52,182 nt of DNA from a virus, in the IMG/VR virus record IMGVR_UViG_3300024262_004288, positions 1-52,182 of that record; one strand, written 5' to 3'. The translations under genes were made by a program, and so were the position numbers. How positions within the stretch are numbered: position 1 is the first letter of the stretch; each line of letters begins with the position of its first letter. Shown one piece after another: positions 22,352-33,223 of the stretch. The notes under the pieces are model-generated. The model was not told where the DNA came from, made no database searches, and saw only the letters and a list, made by a program, of their open reading frames with translations.

Positions 22352-22371
22352 ATTTCTTAACCCTTTCCAAG

Positions 22372-22377
22372 TATAAT
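22372..22377 (+). promoter_or_regulatory. Promoter -10 box (CAAGTATAATA type), site 1
   Basis: TATAAT within CCAAGTATAATA. The same CAAGTATAATA string recurs at 22883-22893. No clear -35 box. A start about 7 nt downstream would fall at 22384, exactly the first base of a 20-bp hairpin. Confidence 0.55.
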
Positions 22378-22383
22378 AGATAT

Positions 22384-22428
22384 AGAAGGGTCGGGTGAAG
22401 TTTGTTTTAAACTTCACCTGATCCTTCT
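22384..22428 (+). promoter_or_regulatory. 20-bp hairpin at predicted transcript 5' end
   Basis: Inverted arms 22384-22403 and 22409-22428 with a 5-nt loop GTTTT; all 20 positions pair, two as G-U. The core reads GGTGAAGT / ACTTCACC. No run of T follows, so a simple intrinsic terminator is less likely than a 5' protective stem-loop, though bidirectional termination between genes cannot be excluded. Confidence 0.6.
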
Positions 22429-22844: not shown

Positions 22845-22886
22845 ATAATGATAGGTAATTAATCCTTTTATTACATATTTATCAAG

Positions 22887-22892
22887 TATAAT
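22887..22892 (+). promoter_or_regulatory. Promoter -10 box (CAAGTATAATA type), site 2
   Basis: TATAAT in TCAAGTATAATATT, the second copy of the motif at 22371. The predicted start falls at about 22899, inside the first arm of a perfect 24-bp hairpin. It would serve the small membrane protein at 23044. Confidence 0.55.
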
Positions 22893-22895
22893 ATT

Positions 22896-22957
22896 AATAG
22901 GAATAGGTTAGGTGAAGTATGTTTGATTTAATCTACTTCACCTAACCTATTCCTATT
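22896..22957 (+). promoter_or_regulatory. Perfect 24-bp hairpin in leader
   Basis: Arms 22896-22919 and 22934-22957 are exact reverse complements, with a 14-nt loop that itself can pair GATT/AATC. The core GGTGAAGT / ACTTCACC is the same as in the hairpin at 22384. A short T-rich run TTTTC follows the second arm, so it could also act as a terminator; its position at the predicted transcript start argues for a 5' structure. Confidence 0.6.
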
Positions 22958-23043
22958 TTCTTTGAGGCCAAGAACAACAAATTTACTTCCGGCGATGGCC
23001 TCCGTAGTGCGCCGGTGGTATAACTTGGGGATGGAGTATCATC

Positions 23044-23463
23044 ATGGACGGAATCAAAATCGGAATCGCTGCGACCGCAACAGTCGTCGCGGTCGTTGGC
23101 ACCCTTCTTGGCGTCAAGGCAGTGAAGGGCAGGGACAAGGAGGCCAAGGCCATCCACGGCGAGCGCGCCGATGCCCGCCACTCCGCCAAGGCCACCTGCA
23201 AGGACGCGACGCACGGTGCCAAGTCCACCTGCAAGGAGGCCATCAGGTCCGCGAAGGATGAGCGGGATGCCAAGATCCGCGACGCGGTCACCCAGAGGAA
23301 CGAGGCCATCAAGGCCGCCAAGTCCGCGAAGTCCGAAGCGTTCATCGCAGCGGATGACGCGCACCAGTCAGCCCTGATGGCCTTGAAGGCGTCGCGGAAC
23401 GAGAATGAGAAGAAGGACGAGGAGCCCAAGGCCGCCAAGGGCAAGAAGTCCAAGGCCGCATAG
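23044..23463 (+). CDS. Membrane-anchored Lys/Ala-rich protein
   Basis: A 139-residue protein with one N-terminal membrane segment (residues 5-26, IGIAATATVVAVVGTLLGV) followed by a long, highly charged helix with repeating A-K-x-x-C-K/R units (ATCKDATHGAKSTCKEAIRSAK) and a Lys/Ala tail KAAKGKKSKAA like histone H1. Coding is strikingly GC-rich against its AT-rich surroundings, pointing to strong expression. GGATGGAG precedes the ATG. It could bind nucleic acid at the membrane or be a virion-membrane or lysis-related component; no family recognised. A hairpin closes the gene. Confidence 0.6.
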   Translation: MDGIKIGIAATATVVAVVGTLLGVKAVKGRDKEAKAIHGERADARHSAKATCKDATHGAKSTCKEAIRSAKDERDAKIRDAVTQRNEAIKAAKSAKSEAFIAADDAHQSALMALKASRNENEKKDEEPKAAKGKKSKAA

Positions 23464-23474
23464 TTCACCTGAAC

Positions 23475-23512
23475 GTGGATGGGCTCTCGAGATTACTTGG
23501 GAGCCCATCCAC
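23475..23512 (+). terminator. 12-bp GC-rich hairpin after the membrane protein gene
   Basis: Arms GTGGATGGGCTC and GAGCCCATCCAC pair perfectly over 12 bp with a 14-nt loop. It starts 12 nt after the stop. There is no T-run, so it may be a 3' stabilising or processing element as well as a terminator. Confidence 0.55.
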
Positions 23513-23580
23513 ACAGGAGTTATTAAATTAACTAATACTAATACTAAACTACAATTCAAATAGTATTTAATATATCTTTG

Positions 23581-24300
23581 GGATGTGTGCCCAGCGGGCT
23601 GCGAAAGCGGCCTGCCCGGCAGGGTGTTAGCTCACTTTTCTGTTGCCAAATAGGCAATGGATTAATCCTCCTTCATGAGGTGTCTTTGGACAGTAGCTCT
23701 TTGAGATACGATCTAAATACTTAGATCCTTCCAACGAGGGACTGAGGAGGGGTAGCTTGCTACCTAAGCTCCAAAGAACTTTTCGCACAACGAGAAAAAC
23801 CGTGTAGTCGAGAGTCTTTCTTGAAGACGGAGAAACCTCCGGGGAAAGACAAGGACATCTTGACTATGTAACCAACGGGAAACAGTGGAGAGCGATACCG
23901 CCAGTATCGCCAGTAGCGGATTTCTTCTCCGCGATGGATTACCCCCACTGGAAGGATGATGGCCAATGACCTGCGCCTCAGGTATCGGAAAGGTGGCGTC
24001 ATTGTGATCCCCTACTCCGAAGAGTCCTCAACTTCAGAGTTAGCCGACGATCCTTTCTCATCAGTTGTGCGTCAAACCGTGGATAAGTGGGTGCGAAGTT
24101 CCTAGGCCCACACCTACCATTAGTAGGTCAAAGCGGAGGCGCTATTAAATTCTTGAATTGAATTATCGAAATTGAATTAAACTGAACAAACAAGTGGGTA
24201 CAAAACATCGTGGTACTACCTGAGGGTTACCCGCCACATCAGGGGATGCGGTGAAGCCACGATCGGCAAAACCTGGGTGCCGATCATAAAACCCGGTGAA
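23581..24300 (+). ncRNA. Candidate giant structured noncoding RNA (GOLLD/ROOL-like)
   Basis: About 720 bases without a credible gene but dense in helices. Seen directly: a 9-bp stem with GAAA tetraloop (23594-23602/23607-23615); TTGCC/GGCAA (23643-23657); GATCTAA/TTAGATC with loop ATAC (23710-23727); a three-part arm made of 9 bp (23805-23813/23858-23866), 7 bp (23814-23820/23844-23850) and 5 bp (23828-23832/23837-23841); a junction closed by CAGTGG/CCACTG (23883-23888/23945-23950) holding GCGATAC/GTATCGC and GCGGA/TCCGC; CAATGAC/GTCATTG (23964-23970/23998-24004); ACCTAC/GTAGGT (24112-24128); ATCGTGG/CCACGAT (24207-24213/24257-24263); and a 3' hairpin whose loop CTGGG can pair with CCCGG (24292-24296) as a pseudoknot. 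Size, tetraloop, junctions and phage setting fit the giant phage RNA classes. Ends are approximate; an AT-rich stretch at 23521-23575 may hold the promoter. Confidence 0.7.
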
Positions 24301-24317
24301 AGCAGAAAAAAGTAGAA

Positions 24318-25403
24318 ATGACTCAGTTGAAAGATGCGTTCGATAAAGCGGCGGACAAAGACGGTAATAAGGCCATCAAGGCCGCCGTCACTCGTGCGGG
24401 TGTGAATCCGACTAATTACGACGAGAATGCTCGGCTCGTATTCAGCACTCGTAGTGAGTGGCTACGCTTTGCGAATCGTGAGCGCGAGCTTTCCGAACAG
24501 CAGAGATCATTACAGCAGGCTATTCAGCCCAACGCACTGCGTGCTCTCGCAGAGGCGTTGGAAGTGGAGGAGATCACCGAGCTCACAGATGAGCTCGGAA
24601 ATAAGATGGCTTCTATGGACAAGTCCAAGCTCAAAGCCGCAGAGCAGAATTGGAAGGCCGCAGAGCAGCACTTCGCCGCACGCGATGCGTTGGTCCAGAT
24701 TTCAATGGAACTAAGCGCTCTCCGCAAGGAGATGAACCAGCATAAGCGGGAGCAGTTCGTCCCGCTACGCCGGAATCTGTCGAATATCCTGCGGGATCTT
24801 CCCCGTACGGAGTCATGCGGCAAGTACGCGCATGGGGCAAACGATCCCACCATTTGCGACACTTGTCGCGAGGCACTGAAGATGCGGTCCGGACCGGGTA
24901 AGATCACGAAGCAGGCTAAGAAGGCTTCGGATCAGAAGATGTTGGAATGTACCAACATGTATCCCGATTTGACCATGGCCGCCAGGCAGTCTGGATTTAT
25001 TAATACTGGCTCCATGCCCTGGGGTCAGGTCCGCAAGTACTACTTGGAAGAGGTTGGTACCTCGCCACAGCAGGGAGCACTCGAGATAGGCGAGCAGTCG
25101 GCCGTCGATCCCATCGTCTCGTGTGCGTTGCAGATCAAGTCCCTGCAACGACAGCTCGGGGCCTGCGAGACCGTCGAAGTTCCCGGCAACCTTCCGCAGC
25201 AGCTCGGCAAGGCCCGCAAGGCCGTGGAGACGAAGCGCGAGGAACTCGATGTCGCGGAGGCCAAACTCGCGGAACTCGAAGAGTTGCAGACCCGCTCCGA
25301 GCGGCCGGCTCAACTCAAGGATGAGCTCGTGGAGCAGCAGCAGGAGATGATGCGGCTCATGAACGATTCCGAGACCCCCAACGACAACAACGGGGCCGAC
25401 TAG
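24318..25403 (+). CDS. Coiled-coil protein of unknown function
   Basis: A 361-residue, GC-rich gene that begins 18 nt after the structured RNA. Coiled-coil helices dominate residues 50-155 and 290-350 (EQQRSLQQAIQ; KREELDVAEAKLAELEEL). In the middle lies a four-Cys cluster: SCGKYAH near 165 and ICDTC near 178, then a basic GPGKITKQAKK segment. The ribosome site is weak (AAAAAAG). Codon use resembles the other presumed high-expression genes. No family recognised; a structural or nucleoid-type role is possible. Confidence 0.6.
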   Translation: MTQLKDAFDKAADKDGNKAIKAAVTRAGVNPTNYDENARLVFSTRSEWLRFANRERELSEQQRSLQQAIQPNALRALAEALEVEEITELTDELGNKMASMDKSKLKAAEQNWKAAEQHFAARDALVQISMELSALRKEMNQHKREQFVPLRRNLSNILRDLPRTESCGKYAHGANDPTICDTCREALKMRSGPGKITKQAKKASDQKMLECTNMYPDLTMAARQSGFINTGSMPWGQVRKYYLEEVGTSPQQGALEIGEQSAVDPIVSCALQIKSLQRQLGACETVEVPGNLPQQLGKARKAVETKREELDVAEAKLAELEELQTRSERPAQLKDELVEQQQEMMRLMNDSETPNDNNGAD

Positions 25404-25702
25404 ACAACTATCCTCTGGCTATCCTGACGTCGTATATTCTACGATGATTGGTTAACCAGAGGTTAACCTGAGGGTGTACCTAATGGCGCGAAAAGAGTTG
25501 CTGATACAGCACAAGAGTTGCCACCCTCTAACTACAACTATGCCATTATTCGAAAGTGTCAAGGAACAGACTCGCCTCTAGCCCCTGACATATTTCCCAC
25601 GTTCCCCGGCGCTACCAGCGCCGGGGAGCCTAGGGAGGGTGGGTTTCCATCCAGGACGTTTAGTCCCTAACGCCAACCGACTTTTTCTCTGGCGAGGAGC
25701 CT
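25404..25702 (+). ncRNA. Second structured intergenic RNA / long leader candidate
   Basis: Some 300 bases between genes with successive helices: CCTCTGG/CCAGAGG (25412-25418/25456-25462) enclosing CGTCGTA/TACGATG (25428-25434/25440-25446); GAGGGTG/CACCCTC (25470-25476/25522-25528) enclosing TGCTG/CAGCA; a 10-bp CCCCGGCGCT/AGCGCCGGGG stem with loop ACC (25604-25626); GGGTGG/CCATCC (25637-25652); GGAC/GTCC; and CGCCA/TGGCG (25671-25694) ending beside the GAGGAG ribosome site of the next gene. GGTTAACC occurs twice at 25450-25468. It could be a separate RNA, an attenuator or a regulatory leader. Confidence 0.5.
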
Positions 25703-25963
25703 TTGAACGACACATCTGAAAAGGAGATTACTATAACTCTACGAGGAAATAAAATAGCAATCGACAAGATTCTAATACTAGTTGGACTTATGGAAGTTGC
25801 TGGTAATCGTACGATTGATATTGCATTATGTTCTCTAAATACTGATAAGCTAGTTAGTGATTTACCACCAGCCTTATCTGATATAGAAATGGAACTTATT
25901 CTTAATAATCAGAGAGTTATTCTTTACGATAAAAGAGGGCAGGTCCTTCTGCTGCCAGGATGA
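25703..25963 (+). CDS. Hypothetical protein, 86 residues
   Basis: A small protein starting at TTG with GAGGAG 3 nt before it. Hydrophobic strands and a Leu-rich helix (KILILVGLMEVAG) are seen, but no family. The ribosome site adjoins a 5-bp hairpin (25671-25694), so translation may be modulated by the upstream structure. It overlaps the ligase gene by 4 nt. Confidence 0.55.
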   Translation: MNDTSEKEITITLRGNKIAIDKILILVGLMEVAGNRTIDIALCSLNTDKLVSDLPPALSDIEMELILNNQRVILYDKRGQVLLLPG

Positions 25964-26916
25964 CTTTCCAATTTAGGGGCTGTCAGTTAGCCCGAAAGTA
26001 TACTCCATCAGATGCTATTCCCTTTCCGGTATTTGTTGAACCAAAGATTGATGGGGGCCGGTTAATCATAGCCATTGATAAGCATAAGCCAGAAGGATTT
26101 AGTCGAAGTGGTAATCCCAAACCGGGACTACTTCCTATTCTCGAACCTTTAACTGCAATTAATGGTTGGGTATTTGATTCCGAAGGATGGCGCAATAGTT
26201 GGGGCGAAACAATGAGTGTTTTCCAACGAGCCAATCCCAATCCTCAGCATCTAAAAGAGTTCCAGGTTTTCGTTTTTGATTTGATTCCAATTGCTACTTA
26301 TCCTCGGGGCGCTTGGGGAACAGATCAACGGCAACGAAAGAGTCTTCTCAAGAATGCCTTATCGCGTTTAGGTACGATGCAATTGGTCATCGATCTGGAT
26401 GCTGGAGAAGTTAATACAATTCCTTTAGGTTCTAGGGTAAGGGCGCCTAACATAGTTTACGTCAATCATGTTGAGGTAAATAACCATCGTGATATTCGAG
26501 ATGCTTACTTACTTTTCAGAGAAAAGGGTTTTGAGGGTGCGATGATTAAAGCACCACAAGCTGGTTACATGTTAGATCGTGTAGGAGCTTGGAGAAAGGT
26601 CAAACCTTTCAAAATGATCTCAGGTATAATAACTCGCTGTGTCGAGGGTGACGGCAAGAATGTTGGTCGCTTAGGATCTTTTAGGGCTCGTCTTCCCGAA
26701 GGTGGAGAATGTGGAGTGGGAACTTTCTTGATGGGTTGCTTAAAGAATGCTGAGGGCACTCCCTTAAATGATGCGGACGTTCGACAATACTTTTGGGATC
26801 GTCGAGCTATGCTAATAGGAAAAAGAATCAACTTCAAAGTTCAAGACGATAATACCCCTGTTAGTGAAGCAAGGCACCCTATCTTTGTGTCTATCGAGGA
26901 GGATAATGGCCAATAA
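25960..26916 (+). CDS. ATP-dependent DNA ligase (short form)
   Basis: A 318-residue nucleotidyltransferase ligase. Motif I is EPKIDGGR with Lys29 as the AMP-accepting lysine; motif III is VFDSEGW; motif IV EGAMIKAP; motif V WRKVKPFK. A C-terminal OB-like domain follows motif V. No N-terminal DNA-binding domain is present, as in T7-type small ligases. It is the first of two DNA ligases in the window and overlaps the following zinc protein by 11 nt. The two may act at different nick types or times. Confidence 0.88.
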   Translation: MTFQFRGCQLARKYTPSDAIPFPVFVEPKIDGGRLIIAIDKHKPEGFSRSGNPKPGLLPILEPLTAINGWVFDSEGWRNSWGETMSVFQRANPNPQHLKEFQVFVFDLIPIATYPRGAWGTDQRQRKSLLKNALSRLGTMQLVIDLDAGEVNTIPLGSRVRAPNIVYVNHVEVNNHRDIRDAYLLFREKGFEGAMIKAPQAGYMLDRVGAWRKVKPFKMISGIITRCVEGDGKNVGRLGSFRARLPEGGECGVGTFLMGCLKNAEGTPLNDADVRQYFWDRRAMLIGKRINFKVQDDNTPVSEARHPIFVSIEEDNGQ

Positions 26917-28072
26917 GTGTGGGGAATGTGCTTGGTTAGAACAGAAATCTCGGGGCAAGACTTGCATTGACCGCGGTAAGTCAGCAGAAGATGATGCCTG
27001 CCCTGACTTTGAGGGAGCCAAGCCAGCTAGTAAAAATGCCGTGTTAATCACGGAGATGTCTGATACTGCCGGAGCTTATTTACTGATTTCTGGAGATGAA
27101 GCCAAGAAGGTTTACTCCAAACGTAAAGAGCTAACTACTCTGGGTTGGAAATGGTTTAAGAAGGATACCTATTGGTGGCACGATAAGCCAGCAGATCCTG
27201 TTGGGATCACGAATCTTCTAGAGGAACTAGAAGATATCAAGATCGAATATGATATAGGGTTCGAGTACGTAGCAGAGGACAAACCCTCTATCACTGTTAG
27301 CGAAGAGATCGGTGACATTGGTGGAATAGCTGAGAACAGTAATTGCTCTGATTGTCGTTTCTTCCGAGAGAGTGGTGCTTACCACAAAACGGACTCATGT
27401 CGGGATATGGGCAAGAAGCCTACTAATTATTGTCCGAAGTTTGAGTTAGAAGTTCGAATTGATATTGCCGATACTGGCATGGCCGAACATGAAAAGGTAA
27501 AACTAGATCACTTGGTTGATGATAAAGTTGCAATCGATGAAGAAGTAAAAGATATCAATCGTCGCTGGGAAGAGAACAAAGATGAGCTCATGACTTTCAT
27601 GTTGAGTCACGGCACGGTCACGGAGCCCAAAGAAACTTCCGTTCAAGGCGAAACTAATCCCGGGTCCCGGGTATTATTCAGCAATGGTTGGAAGGTCCTG
27701 CTTTCCTACGTTGCTAAAATGACATATAGTGAAGCTACTGCAATTAAGTATTGTACTGACCATAAACTAGATGCAGTTGCATCCAAACCAATTTTAGACT
27801 GGGATCGCTGGGAGGCCCTCCGCTTGGAGGGCAAGATTCCTAGTCAGGTAGTTAATAAGGTAGCCAAACCCAAACCACATTACACTCTAAGGTTGTTTGC
27901 AACTAAGGAGCAGGAGTGTCCTGCTTGCGGGCAAATTGTGGACAAGTCTTCTACTTTCTGTTCCCACTGTGGAACCAATATGAAAGAAAAAATTAAAGTA
28001 TGCTCCTCTTGTGGAGGCCAGCTCACGGTTAATATGGCATTCTGTGGGCAGTGTGGGACAAAGGCGGCTTAG
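26906..28072 (+). CDS. Multi-zinc-ribbon protein with YWW module
   Basis: A 388-residue mosaic. Two Cys-rich modules of the type C-x2-C...T/S-C...C-P-x-F lie near residues 5-34 (CGECAWLEQ...) and 145-175 (CSDCRFFRE...). Between them is a module with LGWKWFKKDTYWWHDKP. A central helical part follows, then two C-terminal zinc ribbons (CPACG with FCSHCG, and CSSCGG with FCGQCG). GAGGAGG precedes ATG 26906. Similar Cys modules occur in the 35.6- and 38.9-kb proteins, and similar YWW modules in the 31.8-kb protein. Nucleic-acid or protein binding is likely; no enzyme motif. Confidence 0.6.
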   Translation: MANKCGECAWLEQKSRGKTCIDRGKSAEDDACPDFEGAKPASKNAVLITEMSDTAGAYLLISGDEAKKVYSKRKELTTLGWKWFKKDTYWWHDKPADPVGITNLLEELEDIKIEYDIGFEYVAEDKPSITVSEEIGDIGGIAENSNCSDCRFFRESGAYHKTDSCRDMGKKPTNYCPKFELEVRIDIADTGMAEHEKVKLDHLVDDKVAIDEEVKDINRRWEENKDELMTFMLSHGTVTEPKETSVQGETNPGSRVLFSNGWKVLLSYVAKMTYSEATAIKYCTDHKLDAVASKPILDWDRWEALRLEGKIPSQVVNKVAKPKPHYTLRLFATKEQECPACGQIVDKSSTFCSHCGTNMKEKIKVCSSCGGQLTVNMAFCGQCGTKAA

Positions 28073-28281
28073 TGCGTGTTTTCGACCCCAAAGTTGCGAT
28101 ACCCCTTGCCTCTAAGGTCAAAATACTTTTGCAACTCCTTCCCGTAAAATTAGATATAAGTGTACCCGGTAACTCTGGTGCAATTATCTCTTTCAATGTT
28201 AGGTTAAAGGTAGAACCCATCGATATGGTCAATCCAGACACGAAACCTGCCGAAAAGAAAGAAGAGGAGAAGAGTGAGTAA
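28072..28281 (+). CDS. Small protein with acidic tail
   Basis: A 69-residue protein whose GTG overlaps the preceding TAG by one base. It forms beta strands (KLDISVPGNSGAIISF) and ends in a charged tail PAEKKEEEKSE. It overlaps the MoxR gene by 8 nt and so is likely translated together with it. Unrecognised. Confidence 0.5.
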   Translation: MRVFDPKVAIPLASKVKILLQLLPVKLDISVPGNSGAIISFNVRLKVEPIDMVNPDTKPAEKKEEEKSE

Positions 28282-29494
28282 CATTTTGACAAAGATTGGC
28301 ATCATCGGTTGGGACGATTGCTCCGCAGTCGTGATGTCGGCATTGACCGCGAAGTTACCCATTTGCTTCGTGGGAGAACACGGCACGAATAAGACAGATG
28401 GTTCTGGTGAGATTGCTCGTGCAGTATTAGGTAATTGTCGTTTTACGAAATATGACGTTCCTCTCCTAAATATTGACGATCTTCTGGGATATCCCGATCC
28501 CTCTTCCTTGGCTGATCCAAAGAGCGAGGAAGTACGGTTCAAGGGTACGCCTACTTCAATTTGGAAATGTGATGCGGTCTTGTTCGATGAGATCAACCGC
28601 GCTTCCCCTTTCATTGGAGCAAAGTTGATTGAAGTCGTCCGCACCGGTAGGGTGATGGGTAAGCAGACGAACGTTCAATTAGTCTTTGCTGCAATCAATC
28701 CTCCAGACAAATATGATTCCGCCTTTATGGATTTGGCACAAGCCAGTCGATTCGTATATGTGAAGGTTCCATCCCTGGGACAAATGACTTCTTCCGAACA
28801 GCAGGCCATTCTGGATATGCATACTAGAGGATCTCATTCGACGGGTGCAGAATTTCTGGAGACTATTACCGAGGCCCGTAAGGTGATGGAGCAGTTCTCC
28901 TTGGAAGATTTGGCTACCACCAAGCATACGGTATTGAAATGTACACAAGTTATCAATACTCAAAAGAGGGGTATTATTTATAGTGCCAGACAAGCTCAGT
29001 ATTTGGTGAGGCTATTCCTGGCAGCACAGGCACTAAAAGTGGTAGACCCTAATTCCTACAATTGGTCGGATTCCGATTATTGTAGTCTGGTAGTGGCCAC
29101 TACTCCCGAAGTCAATGGCATTGTCCGTAAGATTGTTAATCCCGCAGATATCAGTGGTCCAATTCAGCAAGTATTGGTCGGTTTCAAACTGAACGATCCT
29201 TTGACAACAGCAAGGTCGTTGAGAGACTTGCTCAGGATCAGAATCTCCGATCAGATGGCCTGGGCAGGTACTACCAAGGAATTCATTGAAAAAGAAAAAG
29301 ATGGAGACATTTTACGCGAAGCGATACAGAATATTGTGGAGCGTCAGTCACGGGGTGATGTCGAGAAAGAACTCTGTAACAGCCTATGCAAGGCCGCCGC
29401 GGGCAAGTTGCTAACAACCGGAACATTGCAGGACTTCCCATTCTCCCTTCGTAATCTGAATGACGAAACGCTGAAAATGCTAGGAGTCAAATGA
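28274..29494 (+). CDS. MoxR-type AAA+ ATPase
   Basis: A 406-residue AAA+ ATPase starting at GTG with GAGGAGA upstream. Walker A is GEHGTNKTDGSG (Lys40), Walker B VLFDEINRASPF, and a MoxR-style sensor FAAINPPDKYD follows. MoxR ATPases act with VWA-domain proteins as chaperone-like machines that insert metals or remodel complexes, and a VWA protein follows 475 nt downstream. The C-terminal half is helical and phage-specific. It overlaps the next gene at ATGA. Confidence 0.82.
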   Translation: MSNILTKIGIIGWDDCSAVVMSALTAKLPICFVGEHGTNKTDGSGEIARAVLGNCRFTKYDVPLLNIDDLLGYPDPSSLADPKSEEVRFKGTPTSIWKCDAVLFDEINRASPFIGAKLIEVVRTGRVMGKQTNVQLVFAAINPPDKYDSAFMDLAQASRFVYVKVPSLGQMTSSEQQAILDMHTRGSHSTGAEFLETITEARKVMEQFSLEDLATTKHTVLKCTQVINTQKRGIIYSARQAQYLVRLFLAAQALKVVDPNSYNWSDSDYCSLVVATTPEVNGIVRKIVNPADISGPIQQVLVGFKLNDPLTTARSLRDLLRIRISDQMAWAGTTKEFIEKEKDGDILREAIQNIVERQSRGDVEKELCNSLCKAAAGKLLTTGTLQDFPFSLRNLNDETLKMLGVK

Positions 29495-29967
29495 GTTTTC
29501 ATCATATCAAAGTAGACTTGGGCGAGCCTTTCCGCAACTTGGCCCAAGACAAGGTTTGGCGATTCTTCGATCCCAAATCCGTCGTTAAGATTGCCAATAA
29601 AGATCTTCCTTGCAAGGAAGTTGGCCCAAAAGAGTCCGACGATCCCGAAAAAAGGGAACCTGATATCACTGAGGACGAAGTTCGTCAACTTATGGGATCT
29701 ACGATCATTGTCATTCATGTTGATGACTTGTTGTACATTATTGATCCAGCAGAAGACAATATTCGCTACTTCAATCAGGATGGCACTACTGATAGTGATT
29801 CTTGGGGACTATACCACGAGTATGGCATCTGTACTTTCTGTCCCGATCCCAGTAATTCGATACTTCATTCCTTTGTGGCCAATCCTTCCTGGATGGACAT
29901 ACAACAAATGGGCTTCGGTGACATTCTAAAAAATTATGTCATGGAGAATCTGGAATTCACTGATTAA
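29491..29967 (+). CDS. Hypothetical protein between MoxR and VWA
   Basis: A 158-residue acidic protein translationally coupled to the MoxR gene. It has an acidic stretch DITEDEVRQLMG followed by an alternating strand pattern STIIVIHVDDLLYIIDP. No family recognised; its fixed place between the ATPase and VWA gene suggests a third part of the same module. Confidence 0.6.
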   Translation: MSFHHIKVDLGEPFRNLAQDKVWRFFDPKSVVKIANKDLPCKEVGPKESDDPEKREPDITEDEVRQLMGSTIIVIHVDDLLYIIDPAEDNIRYFNQDGTTDSDSWGLYHEYGICTFCPDPSNSILHSFVANPSWMDIQQMGFGDILKNYVMENLEFTD

Positions 29968-29968
29968 T

Positions 29969-31804
29969 ATGCTAAAAATTTCAGCGGAAGCGGCGGCTCG
30001 CACCCAGAGGCAGCAGATAGATAAGATCAAAAGGCTTCTGCTGAGCGATCGTCCCCATGAAGCAGCATCTGCACTATACATGCTACTATTTAATCGTACC
30101 ACATTACGAGTATGGGAATTGGCTGTCGCGGACGGTAGTCGACTGCCACAGATACTAAACTATCTACGTAGGATAGAATTCAAGAATAAAGGAGTACCCA
30201 CCGCAGGAGTGAATCTACGAACGGGTCTACTAGTAATTGGTAGTAAGTTCTTTGTTGACTTTATCGAAGACACCTTCGATATCTTCTGGTTGCTTTTGCA
30301 TGAACGCAATCATGTGATTATTCGCGATATTTTAGATCTGCCCGTTCCTTCAATGACACATTCATTGATTAACTTTGCAGAAGATGCTTATATTAATGCC
30401 GTTGCTCGCAAGCAGATTCCATCGGGGATGCCCGAGCGATTTTACGCAGATCAACGGATACTAGAAAAGATATTAGCCGAAGCCCAGAAAGAAAAGGGTG
30501 AGGAAGAATTAACTGAAGAAGAAAAACAGGTGCTAGAAGAGCGTATGTCTCGACTGCATCAAATGTTAACTACGCGCTCTGATATTGTCAGTGAAGTCGT
30601 GCGTGAGCCCTTCGCTTTAACAGATCGAGTTAAGATTTCTGATAGTCTTTGTGATGCCTTAGTTGGTGCTCATCATGCACTTTACAAGGATACCGTTGTA
30701 GGTAAACAATACTTTGATAATAATCCCTTCACTCCTAATGGTGGTCATTATTACGCTGACTACGGCGCTTGGATGAAGGCATTTTACGAATGGTGGCGTA
30801 AACTAAACGATGAGGCTAAGAAGCAGTTTGAGAAAGTGCTAGCTCAACTTCCTCCACTAGTTAAAAGTGGATCTTGTCAAAATCAGCATGGAGATTATGG
30901 CCCGGAATTCGATATACCGGGAATGAATGAAGGACAAGGAGGAGAAGATCCGAAGGAGCCCGGAGAGGAAGACTTCGATCCCGATGCCTTTGAAGATCAA
31001 TATGACATTCCGGAGCAGAAGAAAGAAGACATCCCCATTAAAACAGCTGAAGATTGCGGTGACGATGAGACACACGGCAATGGTGTGTCTCATCAAGGAC
31101 GCGATATTCAAGGACATCCATTCCAATCAGTCAAGCCTTGTTCCTTTGAGCATGGCCTATTAAGCAGTACTTTCGATCAGCAAGATGATGCCCGCAACTT
31201 CGGTTCCATGATGAGCGCTATTAGTTCCACTAACTTGGATAAGATTGGGGAAGTCTGTGGAACTATCCTTAGTCTTCGTTCCGTGGAATCAATAATGGAG
31301 GGATCGACCTTTTATCCTCCTAGTAGTTTGAGTCGTCGCGATCTGGCCTTGCTTGCTTGCGGCCACACCCCCGTACTCTATCGCTTTGGTCTGGGTATTA
31401 CTCAGCCGCGACTAAAAGTCTACATGGATGTTAGTGGATCCATGCATGCTTATTTACCCTACATTCCTTTTATCTCCGAACAACTAAAAGAACATGCTGA
31501 TCGCTTCTTCCAGTTTTCCACCGAGCTAGTAGAAGTTGACGCGGATGAGAAATATTATTATTCAACCGGTGGAACACGATATGATATTGTAGCAAAGCAC
31601 ATTTTGCGAAATAGCTTTAGATCTGTCATCATTGTTACAGATGAGACGGATAGTATCAGCCCCGAGTTGAAAGAGCAGTTAAAAGTCAATGTTGAGGAGC
31701 TATATCTTGTGGTTACACCTTGCGGTTGGGGCGATAATAGCCGAGGTTTCACCGCTTTGGCTACACATCTTTCCAAGATTACCGACACTGAACAATGCGA
31801 TTAA
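29969..31804 (+). CDS. VWA-domain protein with HExxH metallopeptidase-like domain
   Basis: A 611-residue protein. The N-terminal half carries LLLHERNHVI with HExxH (residues 111-115) followed by NFAEDAYINAV, the pattern of DUF2201-type putative metallopeptidases. An acidic low-complexity linker with many Glu/Asp occurs around residues 310-380. The C-terminal VWA domain has the MIDAS DVSGS (Asp487) with TGGTRYD and TDE as later metal residues. MoxR plus VWA pairs are a known machine type. An earlier ATG at 29936 is possible, adding 11 residues; neither start has a clear ribosome site. Confidence 0.8.
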   Translation: MLKISAEAAARTQRQQIDKIKRLLLSDRPHEAASALYMLLFNRTTLRVWELAVADGSRLPQILNYLRRIEFKNKGVPTAGVNLRTGLLVIGSKFFVDFIEDTFDIFWLLLHERNHVIIRDILDLPVPSMTHSLINFAEDAYINAVARKQIPSGMPERFYADQRILEKILAEAQKEKGEEELTEEEKQVLEERMSRLHQMLTTRSDIVSEVVREPFALTDRVKISDSLCDALVGAHHALYKDTVVGKQYFDNNPFTPNGGHYYADYGAWMKAFYEWWRKLNDEAKKQFEKVLAQLPPLVKSGSCQNQHGDYGPEFDIPGMNEGQGGEDPKEPGEEDFDPDAFEDQYDIPEQKKEDIPIKTAEDCGDDETHGNGVSHQGRDIQGHPFQSVKPCSFEHGLLSSTFDQQDDARNFGSMMSAISSTNLDKIGEVCGTILSLRSVESIMEGSTFYPPSSLSRRDLALLACGHTPVLYRFGLGITQPRLKVYMDVSGSMHAYLPYIPFISEQLKEHADRFFQFSTELVEVDADEKYYYSTGGTRYDIVAKHILRNSFRSVIIVTDETDSISPELKEQLKVNVEELYLVVTPCGWGDNSRGFTALATHLSKITDTEQCD

Positions 31805-31831: not shown

Positions 31832-33223
31832 ATGAATGGTGTAGATTTAACTGAATTACTTCGGCGTGTCATAAAACTTGTGCATAAGCACATTAAAAAG
31901 GAGACTGCATCTCTTACAACGTTTGCAGTTCCAGATGATATGCTGGACATTTTGGAATTACTTGAGAACTCTTTCGAGTTCATTCATATGACTGATTCTC
32001 ATTATTTATATAGGCAGCCGGGGGTTGGGGATATAGACTTACATCTGGCCGACGGAATCGGAACGTTCGAGTTGCGACTCCGAAAAGTCCTTCCACCCGA
32101 ACTTCAACTCGAACTAGATAAGCAATTAGAGATTTGGCGGGGGCCGGAATTTTCCGATTCCCTACTCAGTCTATCCCCCCGATCATTTATTATCGAATAC
32201 ATCACACAACAGCAGTCCGGCCCACATAACGAGCTATTCCGAATCCATCGTGAACTCGTGTGGGACTATCTAAACAAAGAGCTACACAAAGAGGAGAGCT
32301 CAGAAACCATGTCGACCGCAATCACTCTACACAAGACCGAAGACAAAGATGGAAAGTACCTCCAGACCGACAAGGGACTGGCGGACAATGACGACGTCGT
32401 GAAGGCGCTCGAAGCAAGCGGCTTCGCGGTCTACGGCAAGCAGAAGCGGGCTCAGCTCTGGTGGATCGCGCGTCCCGAAGAGGACAAGGGTATCGCTACC
32501 CTGGTCAAGACGCTGAAGAAGGCTGGCGTCGAGGCCACCCTCGAGGAGCCGCCCGTTGCCAAGAAGCGGGGTCGTCCGACGAAGGACGATGAGGCCAAGG
32601 ACGATGAGGCCAAGGCCGAAGCCGCGCCGGAGCCCGAGGTGGAAACCAAGGAGCCCGAGGTGGAAACCAAGGCCGTCGAGTCCAAGGTGGAGTCCGCCGC
32701 TGCCGAACCAGAAGTCGTCGAGCCCGAGGCCAAGCCCATCGAGAAGGCCAATGGCGAGGTCATCCGTCTCTCCCGTGACACCTCCGGCAAGGAGGACTTC
32801 CTCTTCACGACCAATGACCCCGAGGATCTCAAGGACATCCTAGGAGTCCTGGAAGCGGCAGGATTCTCCCACTTCGAGAAGGATTACAAGAAGGCTCCGA
32901 AGGCCGACTACTGGTGGATTCAGACCCCCGAGAACGTCGGAGTGCTGATGACTCAGCTTCAGGAGCTGGGCACCGCGCCGGAGCTCGAAGGCTTCGCCGC
33001 CGGAAAGGCCGCGAAGGAGATTCTGCAGACCCTATTCGATGCCGCCGGCGTCAAGGCCCACATCAAAGGCAAGCTGTCGGATCCCACGGCCGAGATGAAT
33101 GGTGTGACGGTCGCGGTTCAGGAAAGTGGCTTCTTCAGTGTTGCCATCAAGACCGAGATCAACACGGCAACTACCAATATCGATGCCGTCGCGGAGTTCC
33201 TTCGCGTGGCTTCGGGCCTGTAG
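31832..33223 (+). CDS. Two-part protein: AT-rich N-terminal region fused to GC-rich repeat region with AT-hook
   Basis: A continuous 463-residue frame with an abrupt change in base and codon use at about 32309. Residues 1-159 are an unrecognised helical domain written in AT-rich codons. From Met160 (ATG 32309, with GAGGAGAG 10-12 nt upstream) the coding is GC-rich and contains two related modules ending in WWIARPEEDKGI and YWWIQTPENVGV, separated by an acidic EPEVE linker. The linker has 15-bp (32582-32611) and 21-bp (32630-32671) tandem repeats and an AT-hook-like KKRGRPTKD. The shorter internal product could be the main, highly made protein. Nucleic-acid binding is suggested by the AT-hook only. 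Confidence 0.6.
   Translation: MNGVDLTELLRRVIKLVHKHIKKETASLTTFAVPDDMLDILELLENSFEFIHMTDSHYLYRQPGVGDIDLHLADGIGTFELRLRKVLPPELQLELDKQLEIWRGPEFSDSLLSLSPRSFIIEYITQQQSGPHNELFRIHRELVWDYLNKELHKEESSETMSTAITLHKTEDKDGKYLQTDKGLADNDDVVKALEASGFAVYGKQKRAQLWWIARPEEDKGIATLVKTLKKAGVEATLEEPPVAKKRGRPTKDDEAKDDEAKAEAAPEPEVETKEPEVETKAVESKVESAAAEPEVVEPEAKPIEKANGEVIRLSRDTSGKEDFLFTTNDPEDLKDILGVLEAAGFSHFEKDYKKAPKADYWWIQTPENVGVLMTQLQELGTAPELEGFAAGKAAKEILQTLFDAAGVKAHIKGKLSDPTAEMNGVTVAVQESGFFSVAIKTEINTATTNIDAVAEFLRVASGL

Follow-up and report, generated by a model that had tools for sequence, protein, structure and literature searches.

Does the longest ORF-poor stretch in a fragment of a large phage genome encode a giant structured RNA, and, if so, does that RNA belong to a class already described? 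To our knowledge, the large structured RNAs known from phages are very few in number, and a clear function has been assigned to none of them. The window analysed here covers one virus record in full (52,182 bases). It is a piece of a large-phage genome, and its plus strand carries nearly all genes, including the neighbours of the gap in question. It encodes a clamp loader, SbcCD, a UvsX-like recombinase, a DnaB-like helicase, two ATP-dependent ligases and a topoisomerase. Among named phages, the PaBG-like ones and large phages of Erwinia, Dickeya and Xanthomonas come nearest, at ~30% protein identity; the closest relatives in the viral collection reach ~35–40% identity in the proteins that they share with the window, and the nearest virus contig with several genes in common is a 388-kb record. 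The phage belongs to a lineage distant from the PaBG-like large phages. This relative also shares two genes from 28274–31804 of the window, one for an AAA ATPase of 406 aa and, after it, one for a 622-aa protein that weakly matches a CoxE-type VWA; in the 388-kb record their order is reversed.

Extent and folding of the gap

The gap (23464–24317) comprises 854 nt without a plus-strand ORF of at least 60 aa, making it the most extended ORF-poor stretch of the window. When both strands are searched for ORFs of at least 81 aa, the longest free gap is 849 nt and the next are 299–302 nt; the first-pass annotation, which had called this the longest non-coding stretch, was therefore correct (849–854 nt against 302 nt for the next gap).

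Folding energies were expressed as z-scores against dinucleotide shuffles (n = 200). Nearly the whole of the region originally proposed (23584–24311) scores −4.06. The plus strand of 23584–23960 reaches −5.15, with 0/200 shuffles folding as well, against −1.13 for 23961–24317, where 30/200 shuffles were as good. Among 136 other 377-nt windows from the same fragment (mean z −1.0, sd 1.4), only two score −5.15 or lower, one containing an intergenic palindrome (22896–22957) and the other the hairpin that follows gene 31832–33223. Set against this background, the two values mark the 5′ part as exceptional and the 3′ part as unexceptional, so that the earlier view of ~720 nt of exceptional structure holds for 23584–23960 and fails for 23961–24317. 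Over the same 5′ domain the minus strand folds less strongly (z −2.89), as expected if G–U pairing in RNA contributes to the plus-strand structure. A structured RNA is well supported, for ~380 nt only: the non-coding domain at 23584–23960 is the only part that folds well beyond chance (z about −5), and the element is a real structured RNA, smaller than first claimed and without known relatives.

Almost all of the helices listed at first reading are present, mostly with high pair probabilities in the ensemble. A GAAA-tetraloop hairpin of 13 bp in two segments (23588–23621, P 0.98) includes the 9-bp stem already noted, found at 23594–23615 (P 0.98). The three-segment arm is likewise recovered by ensemble folding at 23804–23867, with 19 bp (23804–23822/23846–23867) and an inner 5-bp hairpin at 23828–23841, as is the junction closed by CAGTGG/CCACTG (23883–23888/23945–23950, P 0.96), a three-way junction spanning 23883–23950 with hairpins at 23892–23910 and 23916–23932 (P 0.94–0.96). 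One proposed pairing, ATCGTGG with CCACGAT (24207/24257), loses in the ensemble to 23993–24013/24241–24260.

The 5′ domain is closed by an anti-Shine–Dalgarno-like segment, ATCCTCCTTC (23665–23674), which pairs with 23951–23960 (P 0.63–0.81). The latter, GAAGGATGAT, comprises the Shine–Dalgarno and start region of a small ORF, and the GGAAGGA stretch at that start has an unpaired probability of 0.01–0.15 in the ensemble. By itself the pairing is not striking, since 68/1000 shuffles pair equally well. A second segment complementary to the masked start region lies at 23725–23732 and could compete with the anti-Shine–Dalgarno pairing; complementarity of this kind is what those 68/1000 shuffles show.

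The small ORF in question is a possible 48-aa gene at 23959–24105 (MANDLRLRYRKGGVIVIPYSEESSTSELADDPFSSVVRQTVDKWVRSS; alternative ATG at 23956). GGAAGG stands just upstream at suboptimal spacing, too short for an ideal ribosome site. In codon usage the ORF ranks above 95% of 78 spurious ORFs from the same genome, though within the lower 16% of true gene segments; AlphaFold, run on the single sequence without relatives, predicts a beta-beta-alpha fold (mean pLDDT 67), and searches for relatives, including a protein scan of viral contigs, found none. From these features, the chances that the ORF is a real gene appear about even. The earlier statement that the region holds no convincing gene is consequently doubtful: it missed this ORF. 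In 23584–23955 no plus-strand ORF with a start has a useful length, and the stop-free frames score as non-coding.

Downstream, an AT-rich spacer (24141–24193) has TATTAAATT in common with the AT-rich stretch that precedes the 5′ domain, and the 3′ part folds no better than shuffles, apart from an H-type pseudoknot at 24261–24296. The stem of this pseudoknot (24261–24268/24278–24285) is the GATCGGC/GCCGATC hairpin seen at first reading, whose loop can indeed pair with ACCCGG (24291–24296), bases 24273–24277 meeting 24292–24296. A search pattern drawn up after the pseudoknot had been seen returns it as the sole match in 52 kb, both strands included. It is predicted to end 21 nt upstream of the ATG at 24318, and the bases before this ATG are only partly unpaired in the ensemble.

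Flanking genes and the putative transcription unit

The ATG at 24318, a start without a Shine–Dalgarno sequence, opens a gene (24318–25403) for a 361-aa protein, mostly helical and coiled-coil-like according to a low-confidence model, which carries a Cys/His cluster (C-x4-H-x7-C-x2-C). Protein scans of viral contigs found no relatives of it, and the ORF adjoining the gap gave no match to a reverse transcriptase or an endonuclease domain. The genes on either side of the gap show some of the strongest codon bias in the fragment: 23044–23463 ranks first (GC3 0.86) and 24318–25403 third (GC3 0.70), most genes lying at 0.33–0.48. All six genes with GC3 of at least 0.58, the most codon-biased of the fragment, end (at 23463, 25403, 33223, 36528, 38474 and 46219) ahead of a strong hairpin that is GC-rich and lacks a clear U-tract; for 24318–25403 this hairpin is located ~200 nt downstream (25601–25629); most other genes of the fragment have no such strong 3′ GC-rich hairpin. 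From their positions, these hairpins may mark the 3′ ends of strongly expressed transcription units.

Just after gene 23044–23463, a GC-rich 17-nt inverted repeat (23475–23512), again a hairpin without a U-tract, is probably the 3′ end of the preceding unit, and the hairpin at 25601–25629 is probably that of the unit containing 24318–25403. Codon-biased flanks, together with hairpins read as unit ends, suggest that the gap RNA opens a single, strongly expressed unit, which we infer to run from somewhere in 23513–23583 to ~25,636, with 24318–25403 as its only sizeable gene. The AT-rich stretch at 23513–23583 contains a sigma-70-like TTAACT-16-TACAAT (23528–23555), a weak candidate promoter; sigma-70-like matches are no commoner in the sequence than in shuffles, and no promoter stands above chance.

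The upstream gene, 23044–23463, encodes a basic protein of 139 aa, rich in Ala and Lys and hydrophobic over a stretch at its N-terminus. AAG encodes 21 of its 22 Lys residues, Pfam and PHROG give no match, and it is probably very strongly expressed. On the other side, the 3′ non-coding segment at 25404–25702 (z −4.8) is dominated by the hairpin at 25601–25629, which is GC-rich and 13 bp long. The structure of the segment is closed by GACTAGAC/GTTTAGTC, overlapping the stop codon of the 361-aa gene, and it includes a possible 32-aa ORF with a start near 25482.

Known RNA classes and homologue searches

GOLLD forms a multimeric RNA cage with a conserved 3′ region. Like GOLLD and ROOL, the gap RNA is a sizeable structured region of a phage genome without ORFs, and its length is comparable once the gap is taken in full (the ROOL model, RF03087, has 574 positions). 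The first-pass annotation had accordingly suggested one of these classes or a new one. The models RF02032 and RF03087, searched by accession in the window and 14 related records, gave no match at E ≤ 1, with the control genomes equally silent; by these searches the RNA is not GOLLD or ROOL. The other half of the suggestion, a new giant phage RNA as defined by covarying helices and an independent transcript, may still apply. Here only ~380 nt fold beyond chance, and no homologues were found. GOLLD is often over 800 nt, and many GOLLD and ROOL RNAs occur near tRNA islands, an association that is frequent but not absolute (PMC12286853). The gap RNA, by comparison, is not near a tRNA island: at curated (gathering) thresholds, Rfam identifies in the whole window only two tRNA-Thr genes (50.1–50.3 kb), 26 kb from the gap, with no tRNA array nearby. 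A general Rfam scan of the gap gave nothing credible at E ≤ 5, including no riboswitch or leader family.

BLASTN of the gap yielded chance matches only, in phage records at E ≤ 10 and in plasmid records at E ≤ 1; when the viral collection was scanned for exact patterns, one match came up, inside a coding region and attributable to chance; single-sequence covariance models of two sub-domains and the 3′ segment matched none of 35 other records, and whole-record DNA searches of related records found no homologue of the gap RNA. Single-protein scans of viral contigs found no relatives of the genes adjoining the gap. An alignment search with the clamp loader retrieved 80 distant loci, the closest with shared neighbours being the 388-kb contig, which was also the only hit of an ATPase alignment among viral contigs; the same alignment found nothing among genome contigs. 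Read whole, the 388-kb relative has as its two longest ORF-poor gaps a stretch of tRNA genes and an unrelated 606-nt stretch, and apart from these no gap comparable to that of the window.

Two kinds of regulatory system offer further parallels. T4 gene 32 is repressed by the single-strand-binding protein that it encodes. At its operator a pseudoknot serves as the nucleation site from which this protein binds the start region, where structure is weaker (PMC535899). The gap recalls this layout: a predicted pseudoknot comes first, then A-rich sequence that appears less structured, with bases only partly unpaired in the ensemble, and then the start codon of a gene that looks strongly expressed. 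The pseudoknot-to-start distance is ~21 nt here and >40 in T4, the gap has an extra large RNA domain upstream, and the 361-aa protein is, in its low-confidence model, helical and coiled-coil rather than a gp32-like OB-fold. With bacterial and phage mRNA leaders that mask ribosome-binding sites, the gap RNA has in common the long-range pairing over the GGAAGGATGAT start region and a second complementary segment; it is much longer than these, and without an Rfam riboswitch or leader match.

A proposed structured leader and its alternatives

A structured mRNA leader explains this anatomy at least as well as a new giant phage RNA. We tentatively favour, at somewhat under an even chance, the reading that the region would be the 5′ leader, long and structured, of a phage transcription unit with strong expression. 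It lies downstream of the hairpin that closes off the preceding gene and upstream of the gene for the 361-aa protein, which is codon-biased and has a 3′ hairpin of its own. The masked start of the small ORF (P 0.81) and the pseudoknot beside a start without a Shine–Dalgarno sequence, unique by the pattern drawn up afterwards, argue for it, as do the confinement of the structure to 23584–23960, the codon bias and 3′ hairpins of the neighbouring genes and an orientation common to nearly all genes. Against it count the length of ~750 nt, very long for a leader, the unremarkable anti-Shine–Dalgarno pairing, the unproven 48-aa ORF with its short spacing and lack of homologues, the retrospective pseudoknot pattern, a protein unlike gp32 in its low-confidence model, and the failure of any promoter to exceed chance. 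What the sequence provides is the anatomy, from which we infer all the regulatory steps. Transcription would start in the AT-rich stretch, near 23528–23583; the 5′ domain would then close through pairing of 23665–23674 with the ribosome site of the possible 48-aa ORF, and translation, or mRNA stability, would depend on its opening. The pseudoknot, together with the presumed single-stranded A-rich bases that precede ATG 24318, could act as a second control point, arranged like the T4 gene 32 operator, probably bound by a phage protein, and the hairpin at 25601–25629 would terminate the unit or protect its 3′ end.

The main alternative is a structured phage RNA that would stand by itself and act in trans, a member of a new class, 380–730 nt long, with its own promoter, possibly processed and serving as a scaffold or cage, as GOLLD- and ROOL-type RNAs may. 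The compact, strongly folded multi-helix domain, its bounding by AT-rich stretches and an upstream hairpin, the exceptional length of the ORF-poor stretch and its position in a strongly expressed-looking island would all suit such an RNA, but the 3′ part lacks significant folding, no tRNA array is near and no collection searched yielded a homologue, and we regard it as rather unlikely. The more specific proposal, a new large class (~380 to 730 nt) that shares no sequence relationship with GOLLD or ROOL and that a rare lineage of large phages would express abundantly as an RNA of its own, is unlikely. Were the gap only seemingly empty, holding several short unrecognised genes (<60 codons) with ordinary mRNA hairpins, the gene-like codon usage and beta-beta-alpha prediction of the 48-aa ORF and the insignificant structure of the 3′ part would be accounted for; 23584–23955, with no useful plus-strand ORF and with non-coding stop-free frames, makes this improbable.

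Inverted repeats acting as DNA, as a replication origin or a packaging or recombination site, would fit the AT-rich stretches, yet GC skew is unchanged at the gap, there are no iterons, and with RNA parameters the plus strand outfolds the minus strand (z −5.15 against −2.89), leaving a DNA-level element very improbable. The lowest probability falls to a group II intron, decayed or strongly diverged, or to a comparable mobile ribozyme. The likeness of group II introns to the gap RNA is a GTGYGCCC-like 5′ motif: GTGTGCCCAG at 23585 carries the GTGYG motif of group II introns, a weak one of five bases, and together with GGGTGTTA at 23622 resembles the 5′ ends of group II introns. This motif led to a search for the domain V hairpin, which is absent from 23001–27500 on both strands; Rfam gives no match to group I or group II introns at thresholds as loose as E ≤ 5, the adjoining ORF has neither a reverse transcriptase nor an endonuclease domain, and an intron is thus largely refuted.

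The gap RNA is a concrete, well-bounded candidate for a large structured phage RNA; without homologues it is a candidate and not a class. Even as the leader that we favour, it would be an unusually long regulatory RNA before a strongly expressed-looking gene of a 361-aa protein, and a trans-acting RNA of a new class, if true, would be the more interesting outcome. Upstream of the gap, two paralogous elements (22368–22428 and 22883–22957) stand 515 nt apart, both containing CAAGTATAATA (two exact matches against 0.01 expected). In each, a long near-perfect or perfect palindrome follows directly, with GGTGAAGT/ACTTCACC common to both and differing outer stem bases. For genes 22476 and 23044 the elements may be a promoter with a 5′ hairpin or a site of regulation.
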